Virus record (IMG/VR): IMGVR_UViG_3300028878_000004
Coordinates: 1-29,846 of that record
From: a virus
DNA: 29,846 nucleotides
Strand: one strand, 5' to 3'
Shown here: one piece after another, positions 7,884-25,320 of the stretch
How positions within the stretch are numbered: the stretch's first letter is position 1
How the letters are laid out: each line of letters starts with the position of its first letter
The notes under the pieces: model-generated
The model's database searches: none
Told to the model about the DNA's origin: nothing
Seen by the model: only the letters and a program-made list of their open reading frames with translations
Translations under genes and position numbers: made by a program

Positions 7884-7919
7884 ATCGTGCGCGTGATCGC
7901 GCGAGGGCGCGCGCGGACA

Positions 7920-7961: not shown

Positions 7962-7969
7962 GCCAAGCC

Positions 7970-10578: not shown

Positions 10579-12399
10579 GTGTCGGCCAGCCCGCTCGCAG
10601 AGGCCGCACGACAGGCGACCCGCGAGCTCGAGCTCGAGTGGAAGACCGAGGAGGAGCGCGAGTTCGCGCTGACCGAAGCCGAACGCTATGCCCGCGACCC
10701 CTTCCGCCTGCTCGACGAGGGCAAGGTCTGGATCTGGTCGAAGTTCGACAAGCGCGTCGTCCGCTTCGACCCCTTCCCCTCACAACGAGAGCTGATCGAG
10801 TCCTGGATCGACTGCGAGCACCTCGCGAAGACGGGCCAGCTGCGCTTCCGCAACGTCGCCGACGACAAGTCGCGGCAGATGGGCGAGACCTGGGGGAGTG
10901 CCTACTGCCTGCTCTGGGCGCTGCACTTCCATACGGTCAGCCTCTTCGCCCACCACTACCGCTCGGCCGAGGTCGACGACGGCGGCGAGCGCAACACGTG
11001 GAAGAGCCTCTTCGGGAAGGTGCGCTACATGGACCGGCGGTTGGGTTCGCCGGCCGGGCTCGTCAACCCGTCAGCACGAGCGAAGGTGCCGGGACTCGGC
11101 CAGCTCGCCTTTCGCCCCTACTCTCGCGAGCCGGCCAAGATCGAGAACACGACCCGGGATTCGGTCTGCTACGGCGGCGAGCAGTCGACCGATCCCGGCC
11201 GCGGTGGCTCCTTCGATGGCGTGCTCATCGACGAGGCGGCCTTCGTCCCCTGGGGCGAGAAGGTCCACTCCGCGCTCGATGAGGCCTGCCCAACGGGGAA
11301 GCTCTATCTCTCGACCCCGAACGGCGACGACAACGTCCACGCTCGCATCATCGACGAGCGGCCCGCCGGCTGGCGCGTCCTCCGCCACCACTGGTCGGAG
11401 CATCCGGTCTACCGCCTCGGCCTCCACGTCGCCGGCGTCGAGGCGGGCAAGCAACCGACGAGGGAGATGAGTCGCAACGCGCTCGGCTGCGAGTTGTGCG
11501 AGGGCAATCGCCGCGACCTAGGCTGGGACCCGGCGGCGCCGCTTGCCCATCGCTTCCCGGGCCGGCTGACTTCGCCCTGGTACGACGAGCGAGTGATCGG
11601 CAAGACCGAGGAGCAAGTCGCCCAGGAGCTCGACATCGACCGCGAGCGTGCGCTCCGCGGTCGTGTCTACTCGGAGTTTCAGTCCGAGCTCCACGTCATC
11701 GAGGACGGAATCCCCTTCGACCCGGCCCTGGAGCTCGAGCTCGGCTTCGACTACGGGCTCGACTCGACCGCGATCCTCGTCTTCCAAGACGCCCCGTCCG
11801 AGCTGCGCGTGCTTGCCCTGCTCGAGCGCGGCGACATGTTCGGGACGACCGCGACCCCGGAGGAGAACGCGGCCGCACTACGTGTGCTACTCGCAGCGAT
11901 CGGCGTCGAGGAGCGGCTGACGACGCCCTTCTGGACACGCAAGCTGTACGCGATCGGTGACCCCGCCGGCGACGCACGCGACCTCGCGACCGGCCGCCCC
12001 TGGGTTGAGGCCTACCGCAAACAGGGCTTCTCGCCGCAGCCGCCGCCCTCCCGCTACACGCGCTCGGTCGAGATCTCGATCGCGGCCGTCAAGCGCCTGC
12101 TGCTGGGGACACCGAAGCCGATCCGGATCTGCGGAGTGCGGGCCGCCCGCCTGGCCGAGGCGCTGCGCAACAACCGCTGGCCGACCGACCAGCTGGGGCG
12201 CCGCCGGCCGGGTTCGACGCGGCCGCTCGACGACAAACACAATCATCCCTGTCGAGCACTCGCCTACTACGCGGTGACGAAGTTCCCGCCTCCGCTCGAG
12301 CGCGACGAGGCGGACGGCATCGAGTCCGACCCGGACGCCGATCGGCGCGTGCGGGACGGGGTCATCGACCCCGGCATCTCCTACGGGATGAAGCTGTGA
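10579..12399 (+). CDS. large terminase subunit (TerL)
   Basis: ATP-driven DNA packaging motor and genome-cleaving nuclease, 606 aa. N-terminal ATPase: Q motif region near residue 66-71 (PFPSQRE), Walker A-like KSRQMGETWG (97-106), Walker B plus catalytic Glu in GVLIDEAAF (Asp218, Glu219), and the coupling motif LYLSTPNG (242-249). C-terminal RNase H-like nuclease: first acidic residue Asp391 in LGFDYGLDSTAIL, a second in AIGDPAGDARD (about 457-467), and a third probably in PLDDKHNHPCRALAYY near the end. GTG 10579 follows the previous TAG directly. The Mu-like head genes that follow fit a gp28-type terminase. Packaging mode cannot be read from this sequence alone. Confidence 0.94.
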   Translation: MSASPLAEAARQATRELELEWKTEEEREFALTEAERYARDPFRLLDEGKVWIWSKFDKRVVRFDPFPSQRELIESWIDCEHLAKTGQLRFRNVADDKSRQMGETWGSAYCLLWALHFHTVSLFAHHYRSAEVDDGGERNTWKSLFGKVRYMDRRLGSPAGLVNPSARAKVPGLGQLAFRPYSREPAKIENTTRDSVCYGGEQSTDPGRGGSFDGVLIDEAAFVPWGEKVHSALDEACPTGKLYLSTPNGDDNVHARIIDERPAGWRVLRHHWSEHPVYRLGLHVAGVEAGKQPTREMSRNALGCELCEGNRRDLGWDPAAPLAHRFPGRLTSPWYDERVIGKTEEQVAQELDIDRERALRGRVYSEFQSELHVIEDGIPFDPALELELGFDYGLDSTAILVFQDAPSELRVLALLERGDMFGTTATPEENAAALRVLLAAIGVEERLTTPFWTRKLYAIGDPAGDARDLATGRPWVEAYRKQGFSPQPPPSRYTRSVEISIAAVKRLLLGTPKPIRICGVRAARLAEALRNNRWPTDQLGRRRPGSTRPLDDKHNHPCRALAYYAVTKFPPPLERDEADGIESDPDADRRVRDGVIDPGISYGMKL

Positions 12400-12684: not shown

Positions 12685-12696
12685 CGATACTCGGCC
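12685..12696 (+). promoter_or_regulatory. CGATACTCGGCC box 1, before portal
   Basis: Exact copy of the repeated 12-base word, ending directly before the portal GTG at 12697. GATACT resembles a -10 element 5 bases from the start codon. No Shine-Dalgarno sequence and no clear -35. Confidence 0.72.
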
Positions 12697-14172
12697 GTGA
12701 GGCTCTCGACTCTCTTCGACCGTGCGCGCCAGCTCGTCAGCCTGCCTGGGCCGAGCAGCGAGGCGAAGCCGGCGCAGGGCGAGGCGGGCTCCGACGTCGA
12801 TACGGCGGGCTGGTGGTACTCAGATCTCGCCGGCGGCGGGCCCGACGTCAACCCCGAGCTGTCGGGCTCGAAGAAGTTCGAGGTCTATGACGAGATGCGC
12901 AAGACGGATCCGGTCGTCAAGTCGACGCTGCTCTTCCAGAAGCTGCCCGTGCGCTCGGCGGCCTGGGGCTTGAACCCACGCCACGACAACTGCGCGATCT
13001 GCCGCGGGGTGCGCGACTGCGTGAACTGGAACCTTGGCATCGAGGACGATGAAGACGGCCAGCTCGACATCTCCTGGGACGAGACCAACCAGCAAGCGCT
13101 GCTCGCCCTCGACTTCGGCGCGATGCTCGAAGAGCAGGTCTGGGGCGATGTTCGCGAGTGGGTCGACGCCGACGGTGATCGCCATCTCGTGCGTCCGCTC
13201 GTCCGGTTGGCGCCGCGCTACCCGCGCTCGATCTCGAAGGTGAAGCGTTCCGGAGCACGCATCACCTCGATCGAGCAGTGGGCCCAGGAGGCGCGGCCGA
13301 TCCCGGGCGAGAAGCTCGTCCACCTGATCCCCGAACGTGAGGGTGCTCGCTGGGACGGAGTCTCGATGCTGCGCCCAATGTGGGGCCCGTGGCGGCTGAA
13401 GGGCGCACTGATGATCGCGGCAGGGATCGGCTGGGACCGCTACGCCGCCGGCCTGCCGGTCATTTGGCATCCGGACACCACTGAAGGCGAGCGCAAGGCG
13501 AAGGAGATCGGTCGCGACATTCGCCACCACGAGCGCGGCTATGTCCACCTGCCGACGAAGGATGGCTTCACTCGCGAAGAGAGCGCCTGGGGTATCGATC
13601 TCCTGAACGGGGCGCAGACGCTTGCCGACCCGGTGCCGCTGCTGCGCTGGTACTCGGCCCAGGAGGCGGAGGCCGGGCTCGCGCACTTTTCCCAGCTTGG
13701 CAACACCGAGACCGGCTCGCGCGCGGTCGCCGAGACGCAGATCGACCCCTTCTTCCTGGCCGTACAGTCGCTCGCCGAGTACGTGCGTGCCGAGCGGCAG
13801 CGGCAGGTGATCCGCAAGATCGTCGAGGTGAACTTCGGCACCGAGGTCGCCGAGAACCACTCGCCTGTCCTGACCGTCTCAAAGATCCAGGCGCGCTCGA
13901 TTCAGGTGATCGCGAACGCGCTCGAGGCACTCCACAACGCGGGCTATGACTTCGCCGGCTTCCCGGCTGTCGTCAGCGACGTCGCCGAGCTGCTCGGCTT
14001 CCAGGTTGACGTCGAGGAGGCACCGACTGCGCGCGATGCCGGTGCGGTCGCCGCTGCGGTCGCCGGCTTCGGCTTGACGCCGGAGCAGATCGCTCAGATC
14101 GAGGCGTCGCTCGGAGTGAAGCCCGCGCCATTGCCGTCCGAGGGTGCGGGTCTGTCGCAGAACGGCCGCTAG
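12697..14172 (+). CDS. portal protein (DUF935 / Mu gp29-like)
   Basis: Dodecameric head vertex through which DNA is packaged (491 aa). The N-terminal third has the portal pattern YDEMRKTDPVVKSTLLFQKLPVRSAAWGL, then a central region with EKLVHLIPEREGARWDGVSMLRPMWGPWRLKGALM and YAAGLPVIWHP, and the clip and crown region with NTETGSRAVAETQIDPFFLAVQS, all typical of the Mu gp29/DUF935 portal family. A Cys-rich CAICRGVRDC lies near residue 110. The tail of the protein is Ala/Glu-rich. The GTG start is fixed by the abutting CGATACTCGGCC box. Terminase upstream and MuF, gpG-like and I/Z-like genes downstream support the call. Confidence 0.92.
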   Translation: MRLSTLFDRARQLVSLPGPSSEAKPAQGEAGSDVDTAGWWYSDLAGGGPDVNPELSGSKKFEVYDEMRKTDPVVKSTLLFQKLPVRSAAWGLNPRHDNCAICRGVRDCVNWNLGIEDDEDGQLDISWDETNQQALLALDFGAMLEEQVWGDVREWVDADGDRHLVRPLVRLAPRYPRSISKVKRSGARITSIEQWAQEARPIPGEKLVHLIPEREGARWDGVSMLRPMWGPWRLKGALMIAAGIGWDRYAAGLPVIWHPDTTEGERKAKEIGRDIRHHERGYVHLPTKDGFTREESAWGIDLLNGAQTLADPVPLLRWYSAQEAEAGLAHFSQLGNTETGSRAVAETQIDPFFLAVQSLAEYVRAERQRQVIRKIVEVNFGTEVAENHSPVLTVSKIQARSIQVIANALEALHNAGYDFAGFPAVVSDVAELLGFQVDVEEAPTARDAGAVAAAVAGFGLTPEQIAQIEASLGVKPAPLPSEGAGLSQNGR

Positions 14173-14181
14173 CAGCCCTGC

Positions 14182-14193
14182 CGATACTCGGCC
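14182..14193 (+). promoter_or_regulatory. CGATACTCGGCC box 2
   Basis: Exact copy of the 12-base word ending directly before GTG 14194, in the 21-bp gap after the portal stop. It shares 20 bases, including GTGG after the box, with box 8 at 25309. Confidence 0.72.
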
Positions 14194-14529
14194 GTGGCGA
14201 AGACGACCACGCCGAAGAACTACGTCGGCCGCCTGGCTTTCGATCCAGACAGCGGTTTCCACCTGAGTGAGGACGGAAAGCCCGTCATCACTGAGGACAA
14301 GGGCAAGAGCTGGCGCTACGCGGCAGAGGGCGAGCCGAACCACCTCTCGCGCTATCAGCGACGGGTCGTCGTCATCGACACAACCGCGAACGCGGAGGAT
14401 CCAGAGCCACACCACTTCGAGGTCCAGCCCGACGATCCGCACGTCGACGGGGTACTCGTTGACCCCGATGTCGAGGCCGAGACGATCACGGCGCACACCG
14501 AAGCCTGGAAGGACAGCGCCGATGAGTGA
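14194..14529 (+). CDS. phage protein of unknown function (111 aa)
   Basis: Unrecognised, acidic, beta-rich small protein (KNYVGRLAFDPDSGFHLSEDGKPV, KGKSWRYAAEGEPNHLSRYQRRVVVID, then an Asp/Glu-rich tail). Start GTG 14194 is fixed by the adjoining CGATACTCGGCC box. Its 3' end overlaps the next gene by eight bases. Lies between portal and the fibre-like genes, so a minor structural protein or a chaperone for the next gene is plausible; no direct evidence. Confidence 0.68.
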   Translation: MAKTTTPKNYVGRLAFDPDSGFHLSEDGKPVITEDKGKSWRYAAEGEPNHLSRYQRRVVVIDTTANAEDPEPHHFEVQPDDPHVDGVLVDPDVEAETITAHTEAWKDSADE

Positions 14530-15136
14530 GATCGCGCTTCCCGACTTCTGGCTCCCGGAGCCGAAGCAGATCGTTCGCGTCTCGCCCTGGATGCCGACTA
14601 GGCACGGGATCGAGGCGGTCTGGGACGAGCTCGACCGCGCCTCGAGGAAGGTCGTCGACCGCTTCTTCAAGCTGCCGGGCCTGCGCGAGCGGATCATGCT
14701 CATGGCGGGCTCGGACGCGAACTACCTCTCGACCGCGCTCGGCAAGCTCGCCTTCGGCAAGACGGCCTACGCCGGGGAGACGACGATCTACGTCGGCCTC
14801 TGGACGGCGGCGATCGACGACACCCTGCTCGGCAACACCGCGAACGAGGCCAACTACACCTCCTACGCGCGCCTGGCCCTAACGAACAACACGACCATCT
14901 TCGCGGCCGGCACGGGCACGACCACCTACGTCAACACCTGGCCCTCGGATGCGACGAAGTCGTGGCCGACCTCGACCGGCGGCTCGTCGACCGTCACCTA
15001 CATGGGCGCGCTGAACGGGAATGCCGGCACCTCGGCCGACAAGGGCATGGTCTGGGCCTCGGTCACCTCGACGGCGATCGCGAACGGGGACACGCCGCAG
15101 CTGGCACAGAACGCCGTCTCCCAGACGAGGGACTGA
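14522..15136 (+). CDS. phage structural protein, fibre/appendage-like (204 aa)
   Basis: Probable virion protein. The N-terminal about 60 residues are helical with aromatic and proline residues (LPDFWLPEPKQIVRVSPWMP, RKVVDRFFKLPGLRERI). From about residue 60 the sequence becomes Thr/Ser/Gly/Ala-rich and beta-structured: ALGKLAFGKTAYAGETTIYVGLWTAAI, then NEANYTSYARLALTN and STVTYMGALNGNAGTSADKGMVWASV. That pattern (YVGLWT..., then YARLAL) occurs in phage tail-fibre or decoration proteins. ATG 14522 is chosen; the frame upstream overlaps the previous gene. Followed at once by a secreted protein. Confidence 0.7.
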   Translation: MSEIALPDFWLPEPKQIVRVSPWMPTRHGIEAVWDELDRASRKVVDRFFKLPGLRERIMLMAGSDANYLSTALGKLAFGKTAYAGETTIYVGLWTAAIDDTLLGNTANEANYTSYARLALTNNTTIFAAGTGTTTYVNTWPSDATKSWPTSTGGSSTVTYMGALNGNAGTSADKGMVWASVTSTAIANGDTPQLAQNAVSQTRD

Positions 15137-15139
15137 GCG

Positions 15140-16435
15140 ATGCGCCGACTCGCTGGCCTTGCCACGCTGGCGGCCCTCTTCGTCTTCACCGGCACGGCTG
15201 CATCTGTTGCGGTCGAGGCCCCACCTATCCTCACTGTCACCAGCCCCGCCGCCGGCACGATCAGCGGCACCGTCGCGGTCAACGCCTCGGCCTCGAGCGG
15301 CACCGTGCGCGTCGATTACTTGCTCAACGGCCAGCCCTTCTCCTGTGGCGACCACGTCGGCTCCTGCTACGACGCGACCTCACCCGCCTGGGACGAGCTC
15401 TGGAACACGAGCGGGGTCGCCGATGGCTCCTACACCCTGACAGCCCAGGCGCGTAACAGCGCCGGAGAGGTAGGGACCAGTGCGCCAGTCTCTATTACAG
15501 TCGACAACGTCCCGGACCCGCCACCGCCTCCCCCACCCCCTCCGCCTCCACCCCCTCCTCCGCCTCCTCCGGTTCCACCTCCACCTCCACCTCCGCCTCC
15601 ACCGCCGCCGCCGAGCGGCTGCGCGCCGGGCTGGTTCCCGGTAGACGCTCAGGTCTGGTGGCGCGACCTAACGACGGGCTTCTCCGACATTCAGGCCAAG
15701 CACGTTCACATCACGTTCTGCAAGCCCGGTCGCTCGCTGACGTTCAGCAGTGGCTCGATCCCGCTCGACATCACGTACAAGATGCATAACAACGACGGGC
15801 GTATCACGTACATTTCGGACGTCTGGGAGACGCCTGGCGGCGACCATACCTACCAGTCGGTCAACCCGGGCTGGACGTGCCCGGTCGCGAACTGCAGCTT
15901 CACGTATCACTGGGATTTGCCGGTCTCCGTCTTCGACCGCTCAGGACTGGAGGGCATTCGGCTTCGCATCACTTCGCGGGAGCCGAACGGCAAGGAGATG
16001 CGCGGCTCGATCAACTTCCAGACGCACATCGCGAATGGTGCCCCGCTCGGGAACATGACTCGCTACCCCTACGATCGCTTCAAGGGTTGGTACACGGGGT
16101 TGAACTACTGCGAGGCGGCTTATCGCTCTGACCTCGTGGACATACCGAGCGCGCCGGTCTCCGGGACTTGGACGCCGAACATTCGCCAGATCGATCACGG
16201 CTCCGATGACGCCGACCCGACCTACTGGTCGATCCGCGTTGACCCCGACATCCACAACGGAATCCCGGGCACCTTCCTCGGTCAGAGTCCGCCCGCGTCG
16301 CGAGACGGCCCCTTCCCGATCGACACGACGCTGCTGGCGAACGGTCCGCACAAGCTGTTCATCGAGACCGAGTGCCAGACCAGCGCGGGCGAGAACGGCG
16401 GCATTGGCGTCGTCCCCTTCGAGGTGGCAAACTAG
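15140..16435 (+). CDS. secreted protein: signal peptide, Ig-like domain, proline stalk
   Basis: A 431-aa protein with a clear N-terminal signal peptide (MRRLAGLATLAALFVFTGTAASVA), unusual inside a head operon. Residues about 28-124 look like a bacterial Ig-like domain (PPILTVTSPAAGTISGTVAVNA...ADGSYTLTAQARNSAGEVG). Residues 127-158 are 31 prolines with one valine, a rigid stalk. Residues about 160-431 form a Cys-containing, Trp/Tyr-rich beta domain (ITFCKPGRSLTF, GWTCPVANCSFTYHWDLP, FIETECQTSAGENGG) that I do not recognise; it may be a binding or carbohydrate-interacting domain. The domain's codon use is less G+C-biased in places than neighbours. Possibilities: lysogenic conversion surface protein, or a structural appendage whose hydrophobic N-terminus is not cleaved. 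Confidence 0.78.
   Translation: MRRLAGLATLAALFVFTGTAASVAVEAPPILTVTSPAAGTISGTVAVNASASSGTVRVDYLLNGQPFSCGDHVGSCYDATSPAWDELWNTSGVADGSYTLTAQARNSAGEVGTSAPVSITVDNVPDPPPPPPPPPPPPPPPPPPVPPPPPPPPPPPPPSGCAPGWFPVDAQVWWRDLTTGFSDIQAKHVHITFCKPGRSLTFSSGSIPLDITYKMHNNDGRITYISDVWETPGGDHTYQSVNPGWTCPVANCSFTYHWDLPVSVFDRSGLEGIRLRITSREPNGKEMRGSINFQTHIANGAPLGNMTRYPYDRFKGWYTGLNYCEAAYRSDLVDIPSAPVSGTWTPNIRQIDHGSDDADPTYWSIRVDPDIHNGIPGTFLGQSPPASRDGPFPIDTTLLANGPHKLFIETECQTSAGENGGIGVVPFEVAN
15518..15613 (+). repeat. polyproline-coding CCN tract
   Basis: Thirty-two codons, all proline except one valine, written with mixed CCN codons (CCT, CCA, CCC, CCG). The coding strand is almost free of guanine in the first 80 bases. Long proline runs stall ribosomes unless EF-P is present and make slippage likely. 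Confidence 0.85.
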
Positions 16436-16756
16436 GTGCCCACCAGTTGCTGGATCATCGTCGAGGGTGAAGTCAGGGAAGTACGCCCACGCCCGAAGGC
16501 CGAGCGAGAGGCGCTACCGGGGAAGAACCCCAGCTTCGAGGGCAAGCTCGGTCTCGATCACCAGGTCGCTTACGATCCCGAGATCCCGACCGACACCGTC
16601 TACTGGACAAAAGAGAACGCCGACGAGGCCCTCTTCCGCTCCACGCAGCCGGTCGAGGCAGCGTGGCGTGATCTCCAGGAAGGGCTGATCTCCGCACAGG
16701 ACTTCCTCGGCCTGGTAGGGACTCTCGAGGGCAAGAAGAGGCTCGACCGTGGCTAG
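16436..16756 (+). CDS. phage protein of unknown function (106 aa)
   Basis: Unrecognised. GTG 16436 follows the previous TAG directly. The protein starts with a strand-like CWIIVEGEVREVRPRP, has KNPSFEGKLGLDHQVAYDPEIPTDTVYWTKENADEALFRS in the middle and a helical end (VEAAWRDLQEGLISAQDFLGLVGTLEGKKR). It resembles the small proteins that precede fibre genes and may be a fibre-assembly or attachment factor; this is inference from position. The stop overlaps the next start by eight bases. Confidence 0.62.
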   Translation: MPTSCWIIVEGEVREVRPRPKAEREALPGKNPSFEGKLGLDHQVAYDPEIPTDTVYWTKENADEALFRSTQPVEAAWRDLQEGLISAQDFLGLVGTLEGKKRLDRG

Positions 16757-17204
16757 CTACCTGGTCAACGGCAAGAACGTCGCGACCGCCGCGACGATCG
16801 ACCACGCCATCTGCGGAATCTGGAACCCGTCAACGACGAAACGGATCAAGCTGCTGCGGTTGGAGATCTATAAGCAGGCCGTCGGCGCTGCTGACGAGCC
16901 AGTTCTTCGCCGCACCACCGCGCGCGGGACGGCAGGTTCGACCGTCACGCCCGGCTCGATCAACGAGATCGAGCAGATCGCGGCACCTCCCTCGGGCTTC
17001 CTGCTCGACCTCGCTGCCTACTCCGTGCAGCCGACGCTCGCGGCGGGCGGCCTCTATGGCCTCTGCCTGCCTGCGGCGATCGGAGCCGGGGTCATGTGGG
17101 TCTGGAACGAGATCGAGATCCCGGCCGGAGCCGGTATCGCACTGACGAACGGGATCGCGCTCGCGTTCCCCGCCGCACGAATCAACGCCTTTGTAGAGGA
17201 CTAA
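16749..17204 (+). CDS. beta-rich phage structural protein (151 aa)
   Basis: Probable virion protein. Composition is that of a jelly-roll or beta-sandwich appendage: MASYLVNGKNVATAATIDHAICGIWNP, RIKLLRLEIYKQAVG, RRTTARGTAGSTVTPG, GAGVMWVWNEIEIPAGAGIALTNGIALAFP. The final motif (weak polarity, W-N-E-I-x-x-P-x-G-x-G-I) recalls small phage head-fibre proteins. The gene overlaps its upstream neighbour by 8 bases and abuts the big fibre gene. Exact place in the particle unknown. Confidence 0.66.
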   Translation: MASYLVNGKNVATAATIDHAICGIWNPSTTKRIKLLRLEIYKQAVGAADEPVLRRTTARGTAGSTVTPGSINEIEQIAAPPSGFLLDLAAYSVQPTLAAGGLYGLCLPAAIGAGVMWVWNEIEIPAGAGIALTNGIALAFPAARINAFVED

Positions 17205-19262
17205 ATGCCAGCCCAATCCTGGGATGGCACTAGCGCCACCTTCCGGATTGTTTGGTTCCCCTCGGGGGGATCGCAGACCTACCCCGGCCGCGACAGTAGC
17301 GGCAACCTGATCCACCCCTCCGGGTGGGCGACTTACTCACTGCCGGGGCCGGCTCCGAAGCCGGTAGCAGAGTCGAGGCTGATTACGCCCGAGGTCGCGG
17401 GCGGCGGCGGGCCGCAGGCCATTGTCCCGGGCGCGATCAACGCCACGTCCGCGGTTACGGCTTCGGTTGTACGCCTTCGCCCGATCACCCCAGCGGGGAT
17501 CAATGCGACCTCCGCGATGTCGGCATCCGTCGGGCGGCTGCGGCCGATCGTGCCTGCGTCAGTCAATGCGACATCGGCGGTCACGGCCAGCATCAGCCGA
17601 GCGCGGCCCGTAGTTCCAGCTGCGATCTCCTCAACCTCGGCGGTCACCGCGGCCATCGTCGCCCGTCGCGCAGTCACTCCGGGCGCGATCAACGCGAGCT
17701 CGGCAATCACGGCTGGCGTCGTCGCCAGGCGCGCGATCGCCGCCGCGATCAGCGCGACCTCCACCGTCGCCGGCGTAGTGCAGATCGCTGCCTTCGCCCG
17801 CGATCTCTTCTCCCGGACTGTCTCGCCAGGATCCACCTGGGGCACGGCTGACCAGGGAGGCGCGTACTCCAACCTCGGCCTCGGCGGCACCGAGTACGAG
17901 GTGGACGGCTCGGTCGGGAAGATGACGATGCCGGGCAACACGAACCGCGCGCAGGCGCTGACGGCGATGGGGTCGCAGGCGGACGTTGACTTCAAAGTCA
18001 AGATGGCCTGGAACGTGAACGCGGCAGGAGCCGCGCAGGGCGGCGATCTGATGGCACGCGTCGTTGACGTGTCGAACCACTACCGCGCTCAGCTCAGGCA
18101 CATCGCCGGAGACCAGAAGGTCTACCTCTCGCTCGCCAAGCGCGTCGCAGGCGTCCCGACGACGCTCGTCGTCGGTCTCGAGGTTGCTGCGTCCTACACG
18201 CCGGGCGACTTCTACTGGGTGCGCTTCCGGCTGGTCGGGACGCTCTTGCGCGCGAAGGCGTGGAAGGACGGCGACCCAGAACCCCTGTCGTGGATCGTGG
18301 AGACGACCGACACGACTTTCACCACCGGCTACGTCGGCCTGTGGGGAATCACGTTGGCCGGGTCGACGGCCAACCCGGTCTACTCCTTCGACGAGCTCGA
18401 CGCCCGCGCTCCGGCCGCGGCGGCGCTCGCGATTCCCCCCGCGTCGATCTCGGCCAGCTCGGCGGTGACCGCGGCCATCGTCCGGCTCCGCCCAATCGCG
18501 GCCACGATCGACGCGACGAGCGCGATCACGGCTGCCGTGGTTCGCCTGCGGCCGCTCGCCGTCGCTGCGATTAGCGCCAGCTCCACGATCACCGCGGCGA
18601 TTCGCCGCTTGCGTCCGGTCGTGCCGGCGGCGATCAGTGCGACCTCGAGTCTGACCGTCTCGCTCACGAAGCAGGGCACGGTCGCGATCACTCCGGCAGC
18701 CATCTCCTCGAGCTCGGGGGTCACGGCTTCGCTGCGTGCGCTGCGCGCGATCCGACCGGGCGCGATCAATGCCAGCTCGAGCATCACCGCCGGAATCGTT
18801 CGTCGGCGACCGATCGCTGGCGCGATCAGCTCGACGTCGAGCGTTACGGCAACGGTCAGCATCCATGGACCCAGCCCGATCGTCCCGAGCGCGATCACGA
18901 GCTCGAGCACGATCAGCGCATCGGTCGTCATCAGGCGCGCGATCAAGCCTGCCGCGATCACCTCCACGTCGATGCTCAGCGCCTCGATCGGCAGGCGTCG
19001 TCCGTTCTCCGCATCGATCTTCTCCACCAGCACCGTCACGGCGAGCATCACGGGCCAGCCCGCAATCTTCTTCGTCCCCGGCCTCCCGAGCGGGCCGACT
19101 CGCCTTGCCTCGATGGCCGGCGGGCCGACGCGCATCTCGACGGGCACCGCCGCCCGTACGCGAATCGCGACGAGCCCGACCGGCGAGACGACGTCGGCCT
19201 CCGAGGTCGAAGGCGATACTCGGCCGACGAGCATGGTGAGCGGCGAGACGACCCGCAGATGA
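17205..19262 (+). CDS. repeat-rich fibre protein with lectin-like domain
   Basis: A 685-aa fibre-like protein. A short N-terminal region (SWDGTSATFRIVWFPSGGSQTYPGRDSSG, about 4-35) may attach it to the particle. Two arrays of about 20-residue repeats of the form [A/P]AAI[S/N]ATSAVTA[S/A]IVRLRPI flank a central globular domain: about six copies before it (about 70-193) and about ten after it (about 407-605). The centre (about 197-405: DLFSRTVSPGSTWGTAD, DVDFKVKMAWNV, VYLSLAKRV, WVRFRLVGTLLRAKAWKDG) has the look of a concanavalin A/LamG-like lectin fold. The tail repeats GPTR/GETT and contains the CGATACTCGGCC word as coding sequence (DTRP). Likely surface fibre or receptor-binding protein. Confidence 0.8.
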   Translation: MPAQSWDGTSATFRIVWFPSGGSQTYPGRDSSGNLIHPSGWATYSLPGPAPKPVAESRLITPEVAGGGGPQAIVPGAINATSAVTASVVRLRPITPAGINATSAMSASVGRLRPIVPASVNATSAVTASISRARPVVPAAISSTSAVTAAIVARRAVTPGAINASSAITAGVVARRAIAAAISATSTVAGVVQIAAFARDLFSRTVSPGSTWGTADQGGAYSNLGLGGTEYEVDGSVGKMTMPGNTNRAQALTAMGSQADVDFKVKMAWNVNAAGAAQGGDLMARVVDVSNHYRAQLRHIAGDQKVYLSLAKRVAGVPTTLVVGLEVAASYTPGDFYWVRFRLVGTLLRAKAWKDGDPEPLSWIVETTDTTFTTGYVGLWGITLAGSTANPVYSFDELDARAPAAAALAIPPASISASSAVTAAIVRLRPIAATIDATSAITAAVVRLRPLAVAAISASSTITAAIRRLRPVVPAAISATSSLTVSLTKQGTVAITPAAISSSSGVTASLRALRAIRPGAINASSSITAGIVRRRPIAGAISSTSSVTATVSIHGPSPIVPSAITSSSTISASVVIRRAIKPAAITSTSMLSASIGRRRPFSASIFSTSTVTASITGQPAIFFVPGLPSGPTRLASMAGGPTRISTGTAARTRIATSPTGETTSASEVEGDTRPTSMVSGETTRR
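17421..17780 (+). repeat. about six 60-bp coding repeats (fibre, N-terminal array)
   Basis: DNA underlying the first repeat array of the fibre protein. Each unit encodes about 20 residues around the core ATSAVTASV...RP. Units are diverged in sequence but keep reading frame and length, typical of tandem duplication followed by drift. Confidence 0.75.
18424..19056 (+). repeat. about ten 60-bp coding repeats (fibre, C-terminal array)
   Basis: Second array in the same fibre gene, same repeat type as the first (core A-I-S/N-A-S/T-S-x-I/V-T-A). Two units carry short insertions (KQGT and HGPS). Array length may vary among relatives by recombination. Confidence 0.75.
19214..19225 (+). promoter_or_regulatory. 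CGATACTCGGCC box 3, inside fibre gene end
   Basis: Exact copy of the word within the last codons of the fibre gene (read as DTRP), 33 bp before the ATG at 19259. It is the only copy not adjoining a start of its own gene; an in-frame ATG follows at 19233. Could serve the next gene with a short leader. Confidence 0.5.
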
Positions 19263-19654
19263 GTTACCTCGAGGCGACAGCCGGAGAGACGCTGCTGCTC
19301 GATCTCGGCCCCCTGACCCGCAAGAACGATGCCGGGGACACGGTCCCCGTCGACCTGGCGCTCGGCGGGACGAAGCTCTGGCTGACGATCAAACGTTCAA
19401 AGGCCGATGCCGACGTGGACGCTGAGATCTCGAAGACCTTCGGCGTTGCCGGCGGCCCGGGCGGGATCGCGGTCGACACGCCGGCGACCGTCGACAACAA
19501 CATGGCCCGGGCGACAGTTGATGCCGTCGAGACGGCCGACATTCTCGAGACGACGCATTTCGCCTACGACTGGCAACTGGAGGAGCCAGGCGGTCGCGTC
19601 TCGAGTCCAGATCATGGGACGTTGAGTCTGCTCGCTGCCGTCACCCGTGCCTGA
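19259..19654 (+). CDS. phage structural protein, baseplate/appendage-like (131 aa)
   Basis: ATG 19259 overlaps the fibre gene stop (ATGA). The protein (YLEATAGETLLLDLGPLTRKNDAGDTVPVDLALGGTKLWLTIKRSKAD, later DILETTHFAYDWQLEEPGGRVSSPDHGTLSLLAAVTR) matches the general shape of small phage proteins with an N-terminal immunoglobulin-like beta sandwich, as in upper-baseplate (BppU-type) N-terminal domains. It may attach the fibre to the virion. Overlaps the MuF gene by eight bases. Family assignment tentative. Confidence 0.65.
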   Translation: MSYLEATAGETLLLDLGPLTRKNDAGDTVPVDLALGGTKLWLTIKRSKADADVDAEISKTFGVAGGPGGIAVDTPATVDNNMARATVDAVETADILETTHFAYDWQLEEPGGRVSSPDHGTLSLLAAVTRA

Positions 19655-20405
19655 CACGCTCGAGCGCCAGGCACGCTCGCTCTCGGAGCTCGAGGAGCTT
19701 CGGCCCACGGTCGAAGCCGCGATCGGACGCGAGCTACGCGAGGCCGAACGCTCGGTCGACGTGCTCGCCCTGGATGCGGCGCTGAACAAGGCGAAGGACG
19801 ACCTCCATGCCGCGATCGAGGCCGAGAAGCGGCGGGCGATCCGGCGTGGACTACGTGGCCGAAAGATCAGACTCGAGCTGACCGAGGCGATGCTTGCTCC
19901 GCTGAAGCGCCTCTACCGACTCGGCCGGCGCGAGGCCCTCGCCGAGCTTGAGCGGCTCGGCTTCGCGGCCGAGCGCGCCTATGCGGCCGACCCCGAATAT
20001 GAACGCCTGCGCCCAAAGGCCCGCTTCCTGCGGGCCGGACTCTTGCTGCTCAGCCTCCGCATCGAGAAGGAGCGCTTGTCGGTCGACCTCAGCGAGGCGA
20101 CCTATGACGTATTGACGCGGGCGCTCTACCGGGTGCCGGGAGGACGTGACCTCGCTTCGCGGCTGGTCTCGGGATCACTCGATGCCGGCCTCGCCGCGAC
20201 CTTCGAGGCGAATGCCGAGCTCGCCGGCGGCTTCGAGTATTCGGCTGTTCTCGACGGCGGCACTTGCGTTCACTGCTCGGCGCGCGACGGCGAGCTCTTC
20301 CACTCCTGGCAGGCGATCCAGGCCGTGCTCCCCGACGGTGGCCCGAACCCCGAGTGCCTGGGCCAGGAACGCTGCCGCTGCCGCCCGGTGCCCTTGCCGC
20401 TCTGA
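19647..20405 (+). CDS. MuF-like minor head protein
   Basis: Minor head (portal-associated) protein of the Mu gpF/SPP1 gp7 family, 252 aa. N-terminal two thirds are long helices (ELRPTVEAAIGRELREAERSVD, then KRRAIRRGLRGRKIRLELTEAML). The C-terminal MuF core has the diagnostic cysteines and motif TCVHCSARDGELFHSW...PDGGPNPECLGQERCRCRPVP, i.e. C-x-x-C...C...C-x-C, which probably holds a metal. GTG 19647 is used. Usually this gene follows the portal directly; here 5.5 kb of fibre and other genes intervene. A CGATACTCGGCC box begins 5 bp after its stop. Confidence 0.9.
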   Translation: MPDTLERQARSLSELEELRPTVEAAIGRELREAERSVDVLALDAALNKAKDDLHAAIEAEKRRAIRRGLRGRKIRLELTEAMLAPLKRLYRLGRREALAELERLGFAAERAYAADPEYERLRPKARFLRAGLLLLSLRIEKERLSVDLSEATYDVLTRALYRVPGGRDLASRLVSGSLDAGLAATFEANAELAGGFEYSAVLDGGTCVHCSARDGELFHSWQAIQAVLPDGGPNPECLGQERCRCRPVPLPL

Positions 20406-20409
20406 GTCG

Positions 20410-20421
20410 CGATACTCGGCC
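20410..20421 (+). promoter_or_regulatory. CGATACTCGGCC box 4
   Basis: Exact copy of the word in the 16-bp gap after muF, ending directly before GTG 20422. It settles the start of the next gene, whose open frame extends far upstream. Confidence 0.72.
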
Positions 20422-20877
20422 GTGGAGATCCACCTCGAAGTCGATGACGCTGATGCGCTGCGCAAGCTGAAGCGGCTCGGCCTCTTCTTTTCCGACCTGC
20501 GCAGCTTCTGGCCGCTCGTTATCCCGCTCTTCATCGGCTGGATGCGCCAGCAGTTCGAGACCGAGGGCGCTTACGGCGGCGAGGCCTGGGCGCCGCTCTC
20601 GTCCGGCTATGGACTCTGGAAGTCGGTCCACTATCCAGGCAAGCCGATCCTGCAGCTGGAGGGCGAGCTGCGCCAGGCGGCTTCGCGGCCTGAGCGCCGG
20701 GTGACGCCGCGGACGCTCACCCTGACGATCCGCGACCCGAAGATCGGATACCACCAGAAGGGCACTGGGACGATGCCTGCGCGGCCGCTTGTCTTCGACC
20801 GATTGCCGGCCGCCGCCCAGCGGGATCTCCAGCTCGCCGGCGAGCAGTACGTCCGAAGTCTCCTCTCCCGGCTCTAG
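20422..20877 (+). CDS. virion morphogenesis protein (Mu gpG-like)
   Basis: Tail-completion or head-completion protein of the phage virion morphogenesis family (Mu gpG), 151 aa. After a short beta segment (EIHLEVDDADALRKL) come FWPLVIPLFIGWMRQQFETEGAYGGEAWAPLSSGYGLWKSVHYPGKPILQLEGELRQA, the characteristic R/Q...W.PLS..Y...K...pg.piL..tG.Lr pattern, then PARPLVFDRLP and a helical end. GTG 20422 is selected because the CGATACTCGGCC box ends there and the upstream frame overlaps muF. Location directly after muF is the same as in Mu. Confidence 0.85.
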   Translation: MEIHLEVDDADALRKLKRLGLFFSDLRSFWPLVIPLFIGWMRQQFETEGAYGGEAWAPLSSGYGLWKSVHYPGKPILQLEGELRQAASRPERRVTPRTLTLTIRDPKIGYHQKGTGTMPARPLVFDRLPAAAQRDLQLAGEQYVRSLLSRL

Positions 20878-20889
20878 CGATACTCGGCC
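20878..20889 (+). promoter_or_regulatory. CGATACTCGGCC box 5
   Basis: Exact copy starting on the base after the previous TAG and ending directly before ATG 20890. The whole intergenic gap is the box. Confidence 0.72.
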
Positions 20890-21408
20890 ATGGCTGCGCC
20901 AGCCGACTATGCGCCCTACATTCGTTCGGCGCTCGCGAGCCTGAAGACGGGGCTGCAGGCTCGGATCGACGTCTACAACGCTGAGGCGGCGAACCTCTTC
21001 GATCTCGAAGCGCCGACCGACGAGGACTACTTCTTCGGCGGCGACGATCTCTACGTGCGCTTTCCGAAGGTCGAGGTCGCGGTCCCGGAGGGGGCACTCG
21101 GACAGTTCTCGCTCAGCCGCGCCGAGGGCGAGCAAGGGCTTGCGATCGCGGTCAGCGTCTGGCTCGAGGGCGAGACGGGCGAGATCCCTGAGATGCACGA
21201 GCGTGTCCTGGGCTACGGCCGCGTCGCGACTGAGGTGCTGATCCAGCCGGGCGCCTTCGGACCCGCGGTCGAGGTCAGCGAGGTGCGTTCGCTCTATCCG
21301 ATGATTCCGGCCGGCACCTTCAACCCGGATACGCGCCAATTTGACAAGTGGCGGACGCTGGCGGCGCTCGAGTTTCAGCTCAACGACATCGCGCGGCGAC
21401 CGCTCTAG
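20890..21408 (+). CDS. neck/tail-terminator-like phage protein (172 aa)
   Basis: Probable connector-region protein. N-terminal helix (YAPYIRSALASLKTGLQARIDVYNAEAANLF) followed by an alternating beta region (YVRFPKVEVAVPEGALGQFSLSRAEG, LAIAVSVWLEGETGEIPEMHERVLGYGRVATEVLIQPG, WRTLAALEFQLNDIARRPL). This layout, one helix then a mixed sheet with a final strand such as LEFQLND, is typical of tail terminator or minor tail proteins near the neck. The start is fixed by box 5. Placed between the gpG-like gene and the protease. Confidence 0.68.
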   Translation: MAAPADYAPYIRSALASLKTGLQARIDVYNAEAANLFDLEAPTDEDYFFGGDDLYVRFPKVEVAVPEGALGQFSLSRAEGEQGLAIAVSVWLEGETGEIPEMHERVLGYGRVATEVLIQPGAFGPAVEVSEVRSLYPMIPAGTFNPDTRQFDKWRTLAALEFQLNDIARRPL

Positions 21409-21417
21409 AGGGCGAGC

Positions 21418-21429
21418 CGATACTCGGCC
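21418..21429 (+). promoter_or_regulatory. CGATACTCGGCC box 6, before protease
   Basis: Exact copy ending directly before GTG 21430, nine bases after the previous stop. Confidence 0.72.
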
Positions 21430-23028
21430 GTGCCGCTGAAGACATGCAAGAGCGACGGACAGCCCGGGTTCAAGTTCGGGGACTCCGGCACCTGCTACAC
21501 CTACACCGCCGGCGATGAGGACGCGAAACTCGCCGCGAAGAAGAAGGCGATCAAACAAGCGATCGCGATCGGGGGTGGCAAAGCTCCACGTGAGCTCGAG
21601 CGCGATCTCGACGCGGAGTCGCGGCGGCTCCTAGCCGAGGACGCCGAGCTGCAGACGGTCGACCTGCTCGGCATCGAGATCATGTCGGCCGGCGGGCCCG
21701 TCCACGGTGTCGGCTCACCGCCGGAGGGCGACTTCTGGAGCGCGGAGGACCTGCGCTCGATGGCCGAGGCAGCCCAGGAGCTCGAGGAAGCGGGCGAGTT
21801 CGAACCGCCGGCGCGCATCGGCGACGAGGCCAAGCTCGGCAAGTCGAAACTTGGGCACTCGAAGGACCAGAAGCTGCTGACCGATTCCGAGCTACCCGCA
21901 GCAGGCTGGCTCTCCAACCAGCGTGTCTCTGAGGACGGCACGAAGCTCCTCGCCGACGTCAAGAGCGTTCCGAAGAAGGTCGCGCAGTTGATCAAGGCGA
22001 AGGCCTACTCGAAGCGTTCGGCCGAGCTCGGCAAGGTGACGAGCCAGAAGACCGGCAAGACGTATGACTGGGTCGTGACCGGCCTAGCCTGGCTCGGCGG
22101 AAAGATGCCGGCCGTTCGTACGCTCGATGACGTCGTCGCCCAGTACGAAGCCGAGGGCCTGAGCCTCGATCTGCAGCGTGTCGTCCAGTACGAAGACCAG
22201 GTCGTCTGGGATCCGGGCGAAGGCTTGGAGGCAATCCGCTCTGCAGTGCGCGAGGCGCTGAATCCCGGACCGTCGATGAACGAGAGCCGCTACTGGGTGC
22301 GCGACGTGACGGCCGGCAAGGTTCTCGTCAGCGAAGGCTGGAGCGAGGATGCCGACGCCTACGTGATTGGCTTCACGCGCAGCGCTGACGGGTCAGTCGA
22401 ACTCGAGCCGAGCGCCGACTGGAAGGCCGCTGAACAACAATGGGTCGCAGCCGCGAAGAGCTACTCCGCGAAAAATCGAGACGCTGCCGATACTCGGCCG
22501 ATGCCGGAGATCACTCTCGACGAGAAGGCCCAGCGCGAGCTGGCCGCCGAGCTCGGGCTCAAGGAAGACGAGGAGCTCAGCCCCGAGAAGCTGCTCGAGG
22601 CCGTCAAGGCCAAGGGCGAGACGACTGAGGGTGACGATGGTGGCGACGGTGGAGAAGGCGACGGCGAGGGCGGCGGTGAAGAGCAGACCGAGGCCCAGCG
22701 TGCGCTCGAGGCGCGCGTCGAGGTCGCCGAGAAGAAGGCAGAGGAGACGGCGGAGAAGCTGCGCTTGGAAGAGCGGCGCTACTTCGTCGATGACCTCGTC
22801 AAGAGCGGCAAGATCGAGCCCGGCGAGCGCGAGAAGTGGGAGACGCGCTACGACAAAGACGCCGAGATGGCTCGTTCCTTCGCCGAAGATCTAGAGATTC
22901 AGCCCCAGCTCGTTCGCGAGTACGGCGACGACGGCGATGGGACCGAGGAAGACCAGGAAGCCAACGAGCGCGCCTACGAGGCAGACGCTCAGGCGCGCCT
23001 GGGAATCGACAAGGAGTCGGTGGTCTAG
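21430..23028 (+). CDS. prohead protease with C-terminal scaffold (Mu I-like)
   Basis: Head maturation protease of 532 aa that should trim the scaffold and itself during head assembly. The N-terminus (LKTCKSDGQPGFKFGDSGTC) is a short Cys-containing motif common to related phage proteins. Residues about 80-235 resemble the Mu gpI protease family: KLGHSKDQ (His143), LPAAGWLSNQRVSEDGTKLLADVKSVP, and AYSKRSAEL (Ser197), the likely His and Ser catalytic pair. The C-terminal about 175 residues are acidic, Gly/Asp/Glu-rich and coiled-coil, i.e. scaffold-like. An exact CGATACTCGGCC word lies just before the in-frame ATG 22501, implying a nested scaffold product. Start fixed by box 6. Confidence 0.88.
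   Translation: MPLKTCKSDGQPGFKFGDSGTCYTYTAGDEDAKLAAKKKAIKQAIAIGGGKAPRELERDLDAESRRLLAEDAELQTVDLLGIEIMSAGGPVHGVGSPPEGDFWSAEDLRSMAEAAQELEEAGEFEPPARIGDEAKLGKSKLGHSKDQKLLTDSELPAAGWLSNQRVSEDGTKLLADVKSVPKKVAQLIKAKAYSKRSAELGKVTSQKTGKTYDWVVTGLAWLGGKMPAVRTLDDVVAQYEAEGLSLDLQRVVQYEDQVVWDPGEGLEAIRSAVREALNPGPSMNESRYWVRDVTAGKVLVSEGWSEDADAYVIGFTRSADGSVELEPSADWKAAEQQWVAAAKSYSAKNRDAADTRPMPEITLDEKAQRELAAELGLKEDEELSPEKLLEAVKAKGETTEGDDGGDGGEGDGEGGGEEQTEAQRALEARVEVAEKKAEETAEKLRLEERRYFVDDLVKSGKIEPGEREKWETRYDKDAEMARSFAEDLEIQPQLVREYGDDGDGTEEDQEANERAYEADAQARLGIDKESVV
22488..22499 (+). promoter_or_regulatory. CGATACTCGGCC box 7, internal to protease gene
   Basis: Exact copy in the middle of the protease gene (read DTRP in frame), separated by one G from ATG 22501, where the scaffold-like domain begins. 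The 20 bases ACGCTGCCGATACTCGGCCG are identical to those at box 8. Confidence 0.68.
22501..23028 (+). CDS. nested scaffolding protein (Mu Z-like), in-frame start
   Basis: Predicted 175-aa product from an internal in-frame start, sharing its C-terminus with the protease. In Mu and lambda the scaffold is made the same way (Z within I, Nu3 within C). It starts MPEITLDEKAQRELAAELGL, has an acidic Gly-rich stretch, a coiled-coil segment (ALEARVEVAEKKAEETAEKL) and a C-terminal helical domain (RRYFVDDLVKSGKIEPGEREKW) typical of head-scaffold ends. The start is picked because a CGATACTCGGCC word precedes it by one base, as at known starts of other late genes. Not confirmed by an independent stop; evidence is the box plus family precedent. 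Confidence 0.65.
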   Translation: MPEITLDEKAQRELAAELGLKEDEELSPEKLLEAVKAKGETTEGDDGGDGGEGDGEGGGEEQTEAQRALEARVEVAEKKAEETAEKLRLEERRYFVDDLVKSGKIEPGEREKWETRYDKDAEMARSFAEDLEIQPQLVREYGDDGDGTEEDQEANERAYEADAQARLGIDKESVV

Positions 23029-23424
23029 ATGGCCGTCACAGGCGGATACGTCCCGCGCTATGCCGCCGGTGCGCCGCCGATCACGCTGGCGTGCTCGGCA
23101 GCGGTCGTCGCAGGCCAGGTCGTCGAGGTAACCGGCGACGGCACAGTCGGCCCGGCGGGCGCCGCCTCACGGAAGGGGATCGGCGTCGCAGGCCAGTCCG
23201 GCTCGGCCGTCGGCGACAAGATCACGGTCTACCTCTTCGGCGACGTCCACGTTCTTATCACCTCGGGCACGGTCGCGGCAGGCGACCAGGTCGGCACCGC
23301 AGCCGCCGGCGCAGTCGTGACGATCGCCGCCGGAACGACCACGGACATCGAGCGCTCGATCGTCGGGGTTGCCCTCGAGGGGGCCACCACAGGCCTCCCG
23401 ATCAGAGTCGTGGTGATCCACTAG
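23029..23424 (+). CDS. capsid decoration/cement protein (DUF2190-like)
   Basis: A 131-aa Ala/Gly/Val-rich beta protein placed between protease/scaffold and major capsid, the usual site of decoration proteins. Sequence (PPITLACSAAVVAGQVVEVTGDGTVGPAG, RKGIGVAGQSGSAVGDKITVYLFGDVHVLITSGTVAAGDQVGTAAAGAVVTI, RSIVGVALEGATTGLPIRVVVIH) fits the DUF2190 family, in which a GxVxV...A.GDxV...G pattern is typical. ATG follows the previous TAG directly. It would bind the outside of the capsid and stabilise it. Confidence 0.82.
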   Translation: MAVTGGYVPRYAAGAPPITLACSAAVVAGQVVEVTGDGTVGPAGAASRKGIGVAGQSGSAVGDKITVYLFGDVHVLITSGTVAAGDQVGTAAAGAVVTIAAGTTTDIERSIVGVALEGATTGLPIRVVVIH

Positions 23425-24369
23425 ATGCCGACCTATCCAGGACAGGGTGGATCCGGCGCACAGTTGACCATTGAGGCGCTGCTCAAGCAGCCCCAGCGGA
23501 TCAGCCGCGACCTCGTCAACCTCGTCTCCAAGCGTCTGATCGCAGACCGCCTCTTCGTGCGTGGCACGCCCGAGCAGGTCGCAGGCGGTGCGATGCAGTA
23601 CCAGGAATCGGAGTCGATCTACCTCGACACCGACGTCGTCGAGGAGATCGCAGCCGGCGCCAACTGGCCGCGCACGACCTGGATCGAGGCGATCAAGTCC
23701 GAGGTTGTCCGTCAGTACGGTCTCGAGGTGCTGATCACGAACCTGATGATCCGTCGCCACCAGATGGACCAGGTGACCCGCGGTGAGCGCAAGCTCGCGA
23801 ACAACCTCGTCCGCTTCATCGACACGAAGGCTTTCGCCCTGCTCGAGGACACCTCGAAGGGCCAGAACACCTACGCCTCGGCTGCGGCTTGGACGATCGC
23901 CGGCACCGACATCATCTTCGAGGTCGCGAAGGCCCAGAGCCTGATTGAGAGCCAGGACAACGGCTATGACGGCTTCCAGAACGCGACGATGATCCTGAAC
24001 ACCGCCAGGCGCGACAACCTCCTGAACAACACTGTCCTTCGCGCCGCGCTGCCTCGCGAGAAGAGCGACGGCCAGATCCAGACCGGGATGATGGCGCCGT
24101 TCCTGGGCCTGAAGGAGATCCTCTTTAGCTCGCGGGTGACCGCGACCAAGGCGATCATCATGGACACGGGTGTCGCGGGCACGATCGCCGACGAGCGGCC
24201 AGATGCCTCCGAGGGCTTCATCGCCTACGACCCGGGTCCCGGCTTCGCGCCGGTCTACGTCAAGGTCTATGAGCACCCGGAATCGAAGGGGCAGGTCGTC
24301 GCTGCAGGCCGCTGGCCGGCGATGGCGCTGACGGATCCGAAGGCCGTCACGGTCATCACGGGGATCTAG
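23425..24369 (+). CDS. major capsid protein
   Basis: Main head shell protein, 314 aa, close to the length of Mu-type capsid proteins (Mu gpT about 305 aa). Visible features: an N-terminal helix region (GAQLTIEALLKQPQRISRDLVNLVSKR), YLDTDVVEEIAAGANWPRT, a long central helix (VTRGERKLANNLVRFIDTKAFALLED), ATMILNTARRDNLLNN, and a C-terminal beta strand region (GFAPVYVKVYEHPESKGQVVAAGRWPAMALTDPKAVTVI) typical of HK97-fold capsids. ATG follows the previous TAG with no gap. No separate propeptide needs to be invoked, because a scaffold is nested in the protease. Confidence 0.92.
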   Translation: MPTYPGQGGSGAQLTIEALLKQPQRISRDLVNLVSKRLIADRLFVRGTPEQVAGGAMQYQESESIYLDTDVVEEIAAGANWPRTTWIEAIKSEVVRQYGLEVLITNLMIRRHQMDQVTRGERKLANNLVRFIDTKAFALLEDTSKGQNTYASAAAWTIAGTDIIFEVAKAQSLIESQDNGYDGFQNATMILNTARRDNLLNNTVLRAALPREKSDGQIQTGMMAPFLGLKEILFSSRVTATKAIIMDTGVAGTIADERPDASEGFIAYDPGPGFAPVYVKVYEHPESKGQVVAAGRWPAMALTDPKAVTVITGI

Positions 24370-24371
24370 AA

Positions 24372-24683
24372 ATGGCGAAGAAAGGCACCCAGAAGAGCAC
24401 GAGCGGCGGCAAGCAGAAGGCGATCGTTACCGCCGACGCCTACGACTGGTACGAGGAGTCCGAGAATCCGGAGACTCCCCGGCACAGCGCCTCGAAGGGC
24501 GACGAAATCGAGGTCAGCGCGGCCGAGTTCAAGCGTGGCTCCGCGATGCACAAGGAAAGCGGCTTTGGCCTCGTGAAGCCGCGCACCGACGAGGCGAAGG
24601 ATGCAAAGGCCGCAGCTGAGGAAGAGGCTGCTGCTGAGGCAGCCGCTGCTCCGCCTCCGCCTCCACCTCCGCCCGAGGAGTAA
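24372..24683 (+). CDS. small protein after capsid with Ala/Pro-rich tail (103 aa)
   Basis: Unrecognised. Lys/Ser-rich N-terminus (KKGTQKSTSGGKQKA), then a compact middle (VTADAYDWYEESENPETPRHSASKGDEIEVSAAEFKRGSAMHKESGFGLVKP), and a low-complexity end made of Ala/Glu followed by eight prolines. The middle, ending with GFGLV-K-P, resembles small head-completion or fibre-base proteins that follow capsid genes. ATG two bases after the capsid stop. The Ala/Pro tail may be disordered or cleaved. Confidence 0.68.
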   Translation: MAKKGTQKSTSGGKQKAIVTADAYDWYEESENPETPRHSASKGDEIEVSAAEFKRGSAMHKESGFGLVKPRTDEAKDAKAAAEEEAAAEAAAAPPPPPPPPEE

Positions 24684-24689
24684 CCCCGC

Positions 24690-25178
24690 ATGGCCTACGC
24701 GGCCTTCGCGGACGTCGTAGCGCGAGCCGGACGCGTTGCTGGTGCCTTCAGCGTCTCGGGCAAGCATCCGAACCAGCAGGACATCGAGATCATGCTCGCT
24801 GACGTTTCAGTGCTCGTCGACGCCGCCATTCGCTCGCGAGGCTTCGACCCGGCCACGATCGGCGACGATGTCGCAGAAGCGCTCAGGGACCTCGTCGCCT
24901 ATGGAGCGCTCACTCGCGCACTCGCGGGCATCGATCCGGGAGCACCCGGTCTTTCGAGTCTCGTCACACGGGCCGATGCGATCTGGACGAGCGGACTTGC
25001 GGCGATCATGGACGGAACGCATTCGGCACTTCTGGAGCTCGAAGCCGGCAGCACGGGGCCGAGTGCCGGCGCACTCTGGACGGATGACCCGACCTATGGC
25101 CAGCACGTGAGCCCGGAGCAGCGCCGCGAGCTGAACGAGGACTTCGCTCCGGGCTTCGCCCGCACGCAGAAGCTCTAG
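24690..25178 (+). CDS. head-tail connector protein (162 aa)
   Basis: Probable head-tail adaptor, inferred from content and position directly downstream of the capsid gene. The first 50 residues are helical (AYAAFADVVARAGRVAGAF, DIEIMLADVSVLVDAAIRSRG), then EALRDLVAYGALTRALAG and a helix near 94-108 (RADAIWTSGLAAIM). Such a 'phage gp6-like' or head-tail-connector protein has an all-alpha fold with similar length. The end WTDDPTYGQHVSPEQRRELNEDFAPGFARTQKL is typical of connector tails. A short sequence GAGTAACCCCGC precedes the ATG. Followed by the largest intergenic gap of the right half (142 bp). Confidence 0.72.
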   Translation: MAYAAFADVVARAGRVAGAFSVSGKHPNQQDIEIMLADVSVLVDAAIRSRGFDPATIGDDVAEALRDLVAYGALTRALAGIDPGAPGLSSLVTRADAIWTSGLAAIMDGTHSALLELEAGSTGPSAGALWTDDPTYGQHVSPEQRRELNEDFAPGFARTQKL

Positions 25179-25320
25179 CGCCGTTGCGAGGGGTTGTAAC
25201 CGCCCGAGTCGGCGCCGTTGCGGGCTGAATGGGCCTCCGCATCGGATCTGGCATGCGCGAGCGCAGAGCGGCTTACAGCGTCTCGGCCTTTAAAACGGGT
25301 GACGCTGCCGATACTCGGCC
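25179..25320 (+). promoter_or_regulatory. 142-bp intergenic control region before the tail genes
   Basis: Gap between head and tail genes. It holds two direct copies of CGCCGTTGCG (25179-25188 and 25213-25222), an inverted repeat GGTTGTAACC (25192-25201) related to the palindrome at 6143, an A+T-richer stretch TTTAAAA (25289-25295) and box 8 at the end. No convincing terminator hairpin with a U-run or RNA gene was found. Likely promoter and operator region of the tail module. Confidence 0.5.
25309..25320 (+). promoter_or_regulatory. CGATACTCGGCC box 8, before tail module
   Basis: Exact copy ending directly before GTG 25321, at the end of the only sizeable gap between late genes. Twenty bases match box 2 and twenty match box 7. 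Confidence 0.74.

Follow-up and report, generated by a model that had tools for sequence, protein, structure and literature searches.

Late promoters of phage T4 consist of an 8 bp, -10-only element, TATAAATA, located at -13 to -6 relative to the transcription start (PMC1524935), and the T4 sigma factor is split between gp55, which is similar to sigma domain 2, and gp33, a sigma4 mimic that reads no DNA sequence (PMC2988020). In phage Aeh1, a diverged gp55 accompanies diverged late promoters (PMC1524935). Repeated words beside gene starts are also described for cluster K mycobacteriophages, whose start-associated repeat (SAS), GGGATAGGAGCCC, carries a Shine-Dalgarno-like AGGAG, is common to the subclusters and is partly linked to inverted repeats (PMC3203893). 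In mycobacteria, an RTG at the 5' end of an mRNA suffices for efficient translation (PMC4633059), so leaderless late mRNAs are plausible in a high-GC host.

Here, we describe a 12-base word that is very probably the on-switch (promoter) of the late genes of an uncultured virus, placed such that the mRNA would start at the first codon, and that is probably read by the product of a frame-split sigma gene, recognition being inferred. The stretch analyzed (hereafter, the window) corresponds to an entire IMG/VR record (29,846 bases), possibly a fragment, with recognizable genes for an integrase, an SbcC-like protein, replication initiation, TerS/TerL, portal, protease and capsid. Other open reading frames in the window encode a protein predicted to be secreted, which combines an Ig-like region with a long run of prolines (15140-16435), a tail-fibre-like protein with many ~20-residue 'I.PaaIsaTSaVtAsI' repeats (17205-19262), and a run of SCSCSCSCSCSCS that is probably simple-repeat DNA (7844-8284).

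The repeated word in the window and its relatives

Eight exact copies of CGATACTCGGCC are present in the window, all on the + strand and at the positions that the earlier note had reported; the comparison with shuffled sequence that it proposed gave a mean of 0.01 copies and a maximum of 1 in 100 dinucleotide shuffles. Six copies directly abut a GTG or ATG, as had been claimed: 12685..12696 (portal GTG 12697), 14182..14193 (GTG 14194), 20410..20421 (GTG 20422 of a tail completion/neck gene, phrog_26), 20878..20889 (filling the gap between the stop codon at 20875-20877 and ATG 20890), 21418..21429 (GTG 21430 of the head maturation protease) and 25309..25320 (GTG 25321). The seventh, at 22488..22499, lies within the protease gene and is separated by a single G from the in-frame ATG 22501. 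The eighth (19214..19225) is a leadered site within the end of the tail-fibre-like reading frame, 33 nt before ATG 19259. No near match to the word elsewhere in the window is start-adjacent, and the large terminase gene (10579..12399, + strand, phrog_2), used as a landmark, is without the motif. The statement that the genes concerned lack Shine-Dalgarno sequences held for 6 of the 7 motif-bearing starts and failed for the portal gene, which has a GAGG, though farther upstream than usual.

A scan of viral contigs for the word followed by RTG returned many single matches, most of which look like chance given the size of the collection, and multiple copies in two contigs, one nearly identical to the window and the other (G001, 40.8 kb) its nearest relative, with 70% amino acid identity in TerL and 85% in the capsid. 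The search for start-associated copies in related phages, also suggested in the earlier note, was borne out by G001, which has the motif at the counterparts of all eight sites (in window order 7888, 9392, 14099, 16324 as CGATACTCAACC-GTG, 16804, 17342, 17974 and 20791), with different flanks, and at two further sites. A long tandem repeat that translates as GTPRGTPR lies near the SbcC-like gene of this relative (L093, ~18986-19531, equal to G001 38986-39531). G001 keeps CGATACTC and varies in the last four bases (GGCC, AACC, GGCG, GCGT, GCGC, GCCC); because these four bases are free between the two genomes, the functional core is the 8 bp CGATACTC, which occupies -12 to -5 relative to the start codon. 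Position 13 is a purine, as the R of RTG or otherwise, in all but one of these sites.

Eleven further relatives came from capsid and terminase searches, and each of the twelve divergent relatives has a start-adjacent word at corresponding places. Four lineage versions were found: CGATACTC in this phage, G001, G007 and L120; CGATAGTAG in G004 and L127; CGAAYCTAG in G003, G006, L121, L122 and L123; and CGACATTC in G005 and G008. All four fit an invariant CGAnnnT, the three inner bases of which switch together at all sites of a genome. Across 13 contigs, all 98 sites lie on the strand of the late genes and the opposite strand has none; finding the word as often within genes and on both strands of related genomes was to have counted against the proposal. 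An RTG is found -2 to +7 bases after the 12-mer at 81 of the 98 sites, counting only those that start an open reading frame of at least 60 codons. This strand bias, and the location of the sites mostly in gene junctions, would also suit a polar DNA site at gene boundaries with a role in recombination, packaging or segregation, but in all lineages the protease gene holds one of the sites, ahead of an internal start, distances to start codons are fixed and the sites are limited to the late region, leaving this explanation with next to no support.

About 100 unrelated viral loci had no comparable word, GC-rich chance words aside, and neither did Zaheer, Walrus and Easley, three of the cultured phages closest in portal or capsid. 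None of 50,697 cultured-phage records matched the terminase or sigma. Scans of genome contigs for a link to a host or isolate gave no relative, and therefore no host is named. A search of the literature, limited to open-access papers, found no earlier description of these words. As part of the best explanation offered here, the phages are a new lineage of tailed phages, uncultured and high in GC.

Sites before tRNA genes, the internal start and flanking sequence

In four relatives the motif is directly followed by a tRNA-Met gene instead of a start codon, with the 5' end of the tRNA 16 nt (G004), 11 nt (G006), 12 nt (L122) or 12 nt (L127) after the C of CGA. Rfam accepted no tRNA at the L121 site, nor directly behind the motif at the L123 site, despite tRNA-like sequence, and both were left out of this count. 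The tRNA-Met genes behind the promoters at L097 8276-8348 and L127 15589-15661 appear initiator-like by eye (1:72 mismatch, three G-C anticodon-stem pairs), and tRNA-Met genes also lie directly behind the promoter at L099 3280-3353 and L122 8140-8212. Phage tRNAs of the initiator type, if that is what they are, would suit leaderless initiation.

Because it directly precedes tRNA genes, the word cannot be solely a ribosome signal. A translational repeat of the SAS type, guiding ribosomes to start codons, was the alternative that the earlier note left standing, and the word does adjoin start codons as the cluster K repeat does (PMC3203893). That role is rejected on the tRNA genes and contradicted as well by the leadered site, where the next gene starts 33-85 nt downstream in the window (19214) and G001 (14099), a gap compatible with a promoter; in addition, the word varies among related phages and has no Shine-Dalgarno core. 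We regard a translational signal as very unlikely. Cleavage of a single long late transcript at each motif, releasing leaderless mRNAs and tRNAs, would equally explain a position before both genes and tRNAs, but the conserved bases match those of a -10 element and a non-exhaustive search revealed no phage nuclease that pairs with motif class, so that RNA processing is given slightly less credence still.

The copy inside the protease gene precedes an in-frame internal start in every lineage. In the window this start would yield a nested C-terminal product of 175 aa (22501..23028, + strand, in frame with 21430-23028). Phage lambda C/Nu3 is an example of a scaffold nested at the C-terminus within a protease gene, and by analogy the nested product here is predicted to be the expected scaffold. 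Its start would be switched on by its own internal promoter, the motif at 22488, and thus have its own transcript.

G and C are often found 5' of the core (~0.55 bits each). In a logo of 13 contigs, each fixed column between -45 and -3 carries 0.15 bits or less, which leaves no fixed -35. No enriched upstream 5-mer or 6-mer was convincing (one 5-mer in the CGAAYCTAG class had p=0.025, uncorrected), and an ECF-type GGAAC -35 occurs in only 2 of 95 upstream stretches. The original proposal of a -10-like hexamer with leaderless transcripts and no -35 fits everything tested, with no direct 5'-end evidence.

A sigma-like gene in two reading frames

All ten genomes covering the region have a sigma-like gene before the terminase, with regions 2 and 4 only, in that order. 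In the window, the region 2 half of this candidate late sigma factor is at 9497..9881 (+ strand, frame 0), with Pfam Sigma70_r2 matches of E=1e-3 to 1.3e-4 and a predicted fold that matches sigma domain 2; the region 4 half is at 9879..10136 (+ strand, +1 frame, ATG 9882 available), recognized from Sigma70_r4_2 matches among the ten genomes, a GC3 switch and Foldseek. Sigma70_r2 matches region 2 in 6 of the 10 genomes (best 1.4e-5) and Sigma70_r4_2 matches region 4 in 7 (best 4.1e-5), single-sequence scores being near or below Pfam cut-offs. The two halves were folded separately. AlphaFold2 modelled the region 2 half with a core above pLDDT 90, and the best 12 structural neighbours of this model by VIA-align are all sigma factors, with Z of 5.8-7.4 (for a helical domain, values below 8 are middling). 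Among the first Foldseek matches to the region 4 half are SigD and SigL (region 4), together with other helix-turn-helix proteins. PHROGs gave no match for the window's region 2 frame, the nearest being region 2 of general and ECF sigma factors, and a distant kinship with gp55 is not excluded; a scan with a single protein, aimed at further sigma relatives, recovered only its own source. A gene with a Staphylococcal nuclease-like domain (9964-10578; Pfam SNase 5.8e-7) lies in the sigma-terminase interval.

Region 4 is in the +1 frame relative to region 2 in 10 of 10 genomes, and since these are independent sequences, sequencing error is excluded as the cause. GC3 across the junction falls from 0.86 to 0.50 in frame 0 and rises from 0.70 to 0.87 in frame +1. 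ATG, GTG or TTG is present at the junction in 7 of the 10 genomes, with CTG in L123, AAG in G008 and AAA in L122, and most genomes have a pattern like xTC GNN GAC. Conservation of the serine codon that precedes the junction ATG was weighed and set aside as proof of frameshifting, since codon usage leaves it only weak evidence. After region 4, a zinc-ribbon-like segment is back in frame 0 (10121..10240 in the window, + strand, no start codon within 150 nt upstream); it is found in five genomes, in four of them without a start codon within 150 nt. The split suggests a programmed +1 frameshift or a two-part sigma, neither of which is proven. A +1 frameshift would produce a protein with regions 2 and 4, and the unshifted product would carry the zinc ribbon; the alternative is a sigma of two polypeptides. 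An intact sigma protein thus requires either an unproven frameshift or two polypeptides.

Every motif site is downstream of the sigma-like gene in 10 of 10 genomes, and the class-specific word of G009 and G010, which are longer records, is likewise limited to the block downstream of it. Motif class tracks the sigma, TerL and portal groups better than the major capsid protein: among CGAAYCTAG phages it agrees with the sigma, TerL and portal groupings, whereas the capsid tree places G003 and G006 alongside G007 and the CGATAGTAG phages. In the sigma tree, a single CGATACTC clade is not clear, with L120 falling loosely with the CGATAGTAG phages. Because motif class follows sigma, TerL and portal while the capsid tree disagrees, the promoters appear to go with the resident sigma and not with the capsid gene; with a small sample and no clean CGATACTC clade, these comparisons of sequence are supporting evidence and not proof.

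The sites could instead be promoters read by a host sigma (an actinobacterial-type xAnnnT -10 with leaderless mRNAs), the phage sigma-like gene having another role. The A and T of a TAnnnT -10 are retained and mycobacteria commonly have leaderless RTG mRNAs (PMC4633059), but G replaces the first T of TAnnnT at every site, the inner three bases change jointly across all sites of a genome, and the sites are found only downstream of the sigma gene. We consider a host sigma unlikely, though it cannot be dismissed as readily as the other alternatives.

Proposed late transcription compared with known systems

We hold it likely that CGATACTC N4 is a -10-only late promoter that gives leaderless or near-leaderless transcripts and is read by the phage sigma, although transcript starts and sigma recognition are inferred, with no transcript data and no known host. 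The phage sigma would redirect host RNA polymerase to the motif sites, with region 2 contacting the A and T of cGAnnnT as A-11/T-7 of the -10 element. The transcript would start ~5-6 bases downstream of the T, on the RTG or no more than a few bases from it, leaving most late mRNAs leaderless or nearly so. The exact start is uncertain: canonical -10 spacing would place it one base into the start codon, and three sites of the tRNA type point to a position one base ahead of this. Region 4 would probably be attached through the +1 frameshift or be a separate product, and it may contact the flap of the polymerase while reading no -35. More tentatively, and with somewhat less than even confidence, a -10-only promoter specific to each lineage may drive the whole late programme, yielding leaderless mRNAs and tRNAs that begin at their own 5' end, and be read by the overlapping-frame sigma, with frameshifting or the two-part sigma setting the level and timing of late expression.

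If true, uncultured high-GC phages would have a late transcription that works like that of T4 but apparently evolved separately, with a promoter code that is simple to read, varies from relative to relative and can be paired with its sigma. The relatives would form a natural series for the study of joint change in sigma and -10 sequence, and they include what appears to be an internal promoter for the start of the nested scaffold, as well as a sigma factor gene whose frame split is conserved.

Like SAS, the word is a repeated, asymmetric 12-13 bp sequence beside gene starts (here 81 of 98 sites), but CGATACTC N4 has no Shine-Dalgarno sequence, occurs in lineage versions and has tRNA targets; judged by its sequence, it falls outside the SAS family. 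The sigma resembles ECF (group 4) factors in having regions 2 and 4 only and in the structural matches to its halves, which include SigH, SigE, SigD and SigL. It differs in its two reading frames instead of one and in the zinc ribbon that follows in frame 0, and, assuming that it reads these promoters, in the absence of a conserved -35. Mycobacterial host promoters use TAnnnT, in contrast to cGAnnnT in a phage-specific regulon here. The system resembles T4 in a short 8 bp element at late genes, inferred to act as a -10 without a -35, and in a candidate phage sigma; the 2- and 4-like parts are separate proteins in T4 and may be so here. It differs from T4 in the sequence of the word, in a region 4 that is still sigma-like and overlaps the region 2 gene in the +1 frame, and in the leaderless transcripts expected; a sliding clamp role is not shown. 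While no sequence relation to gp55 or gp33 is demonstrated, the system would by analogy work like that of T4, its closest working parallel.
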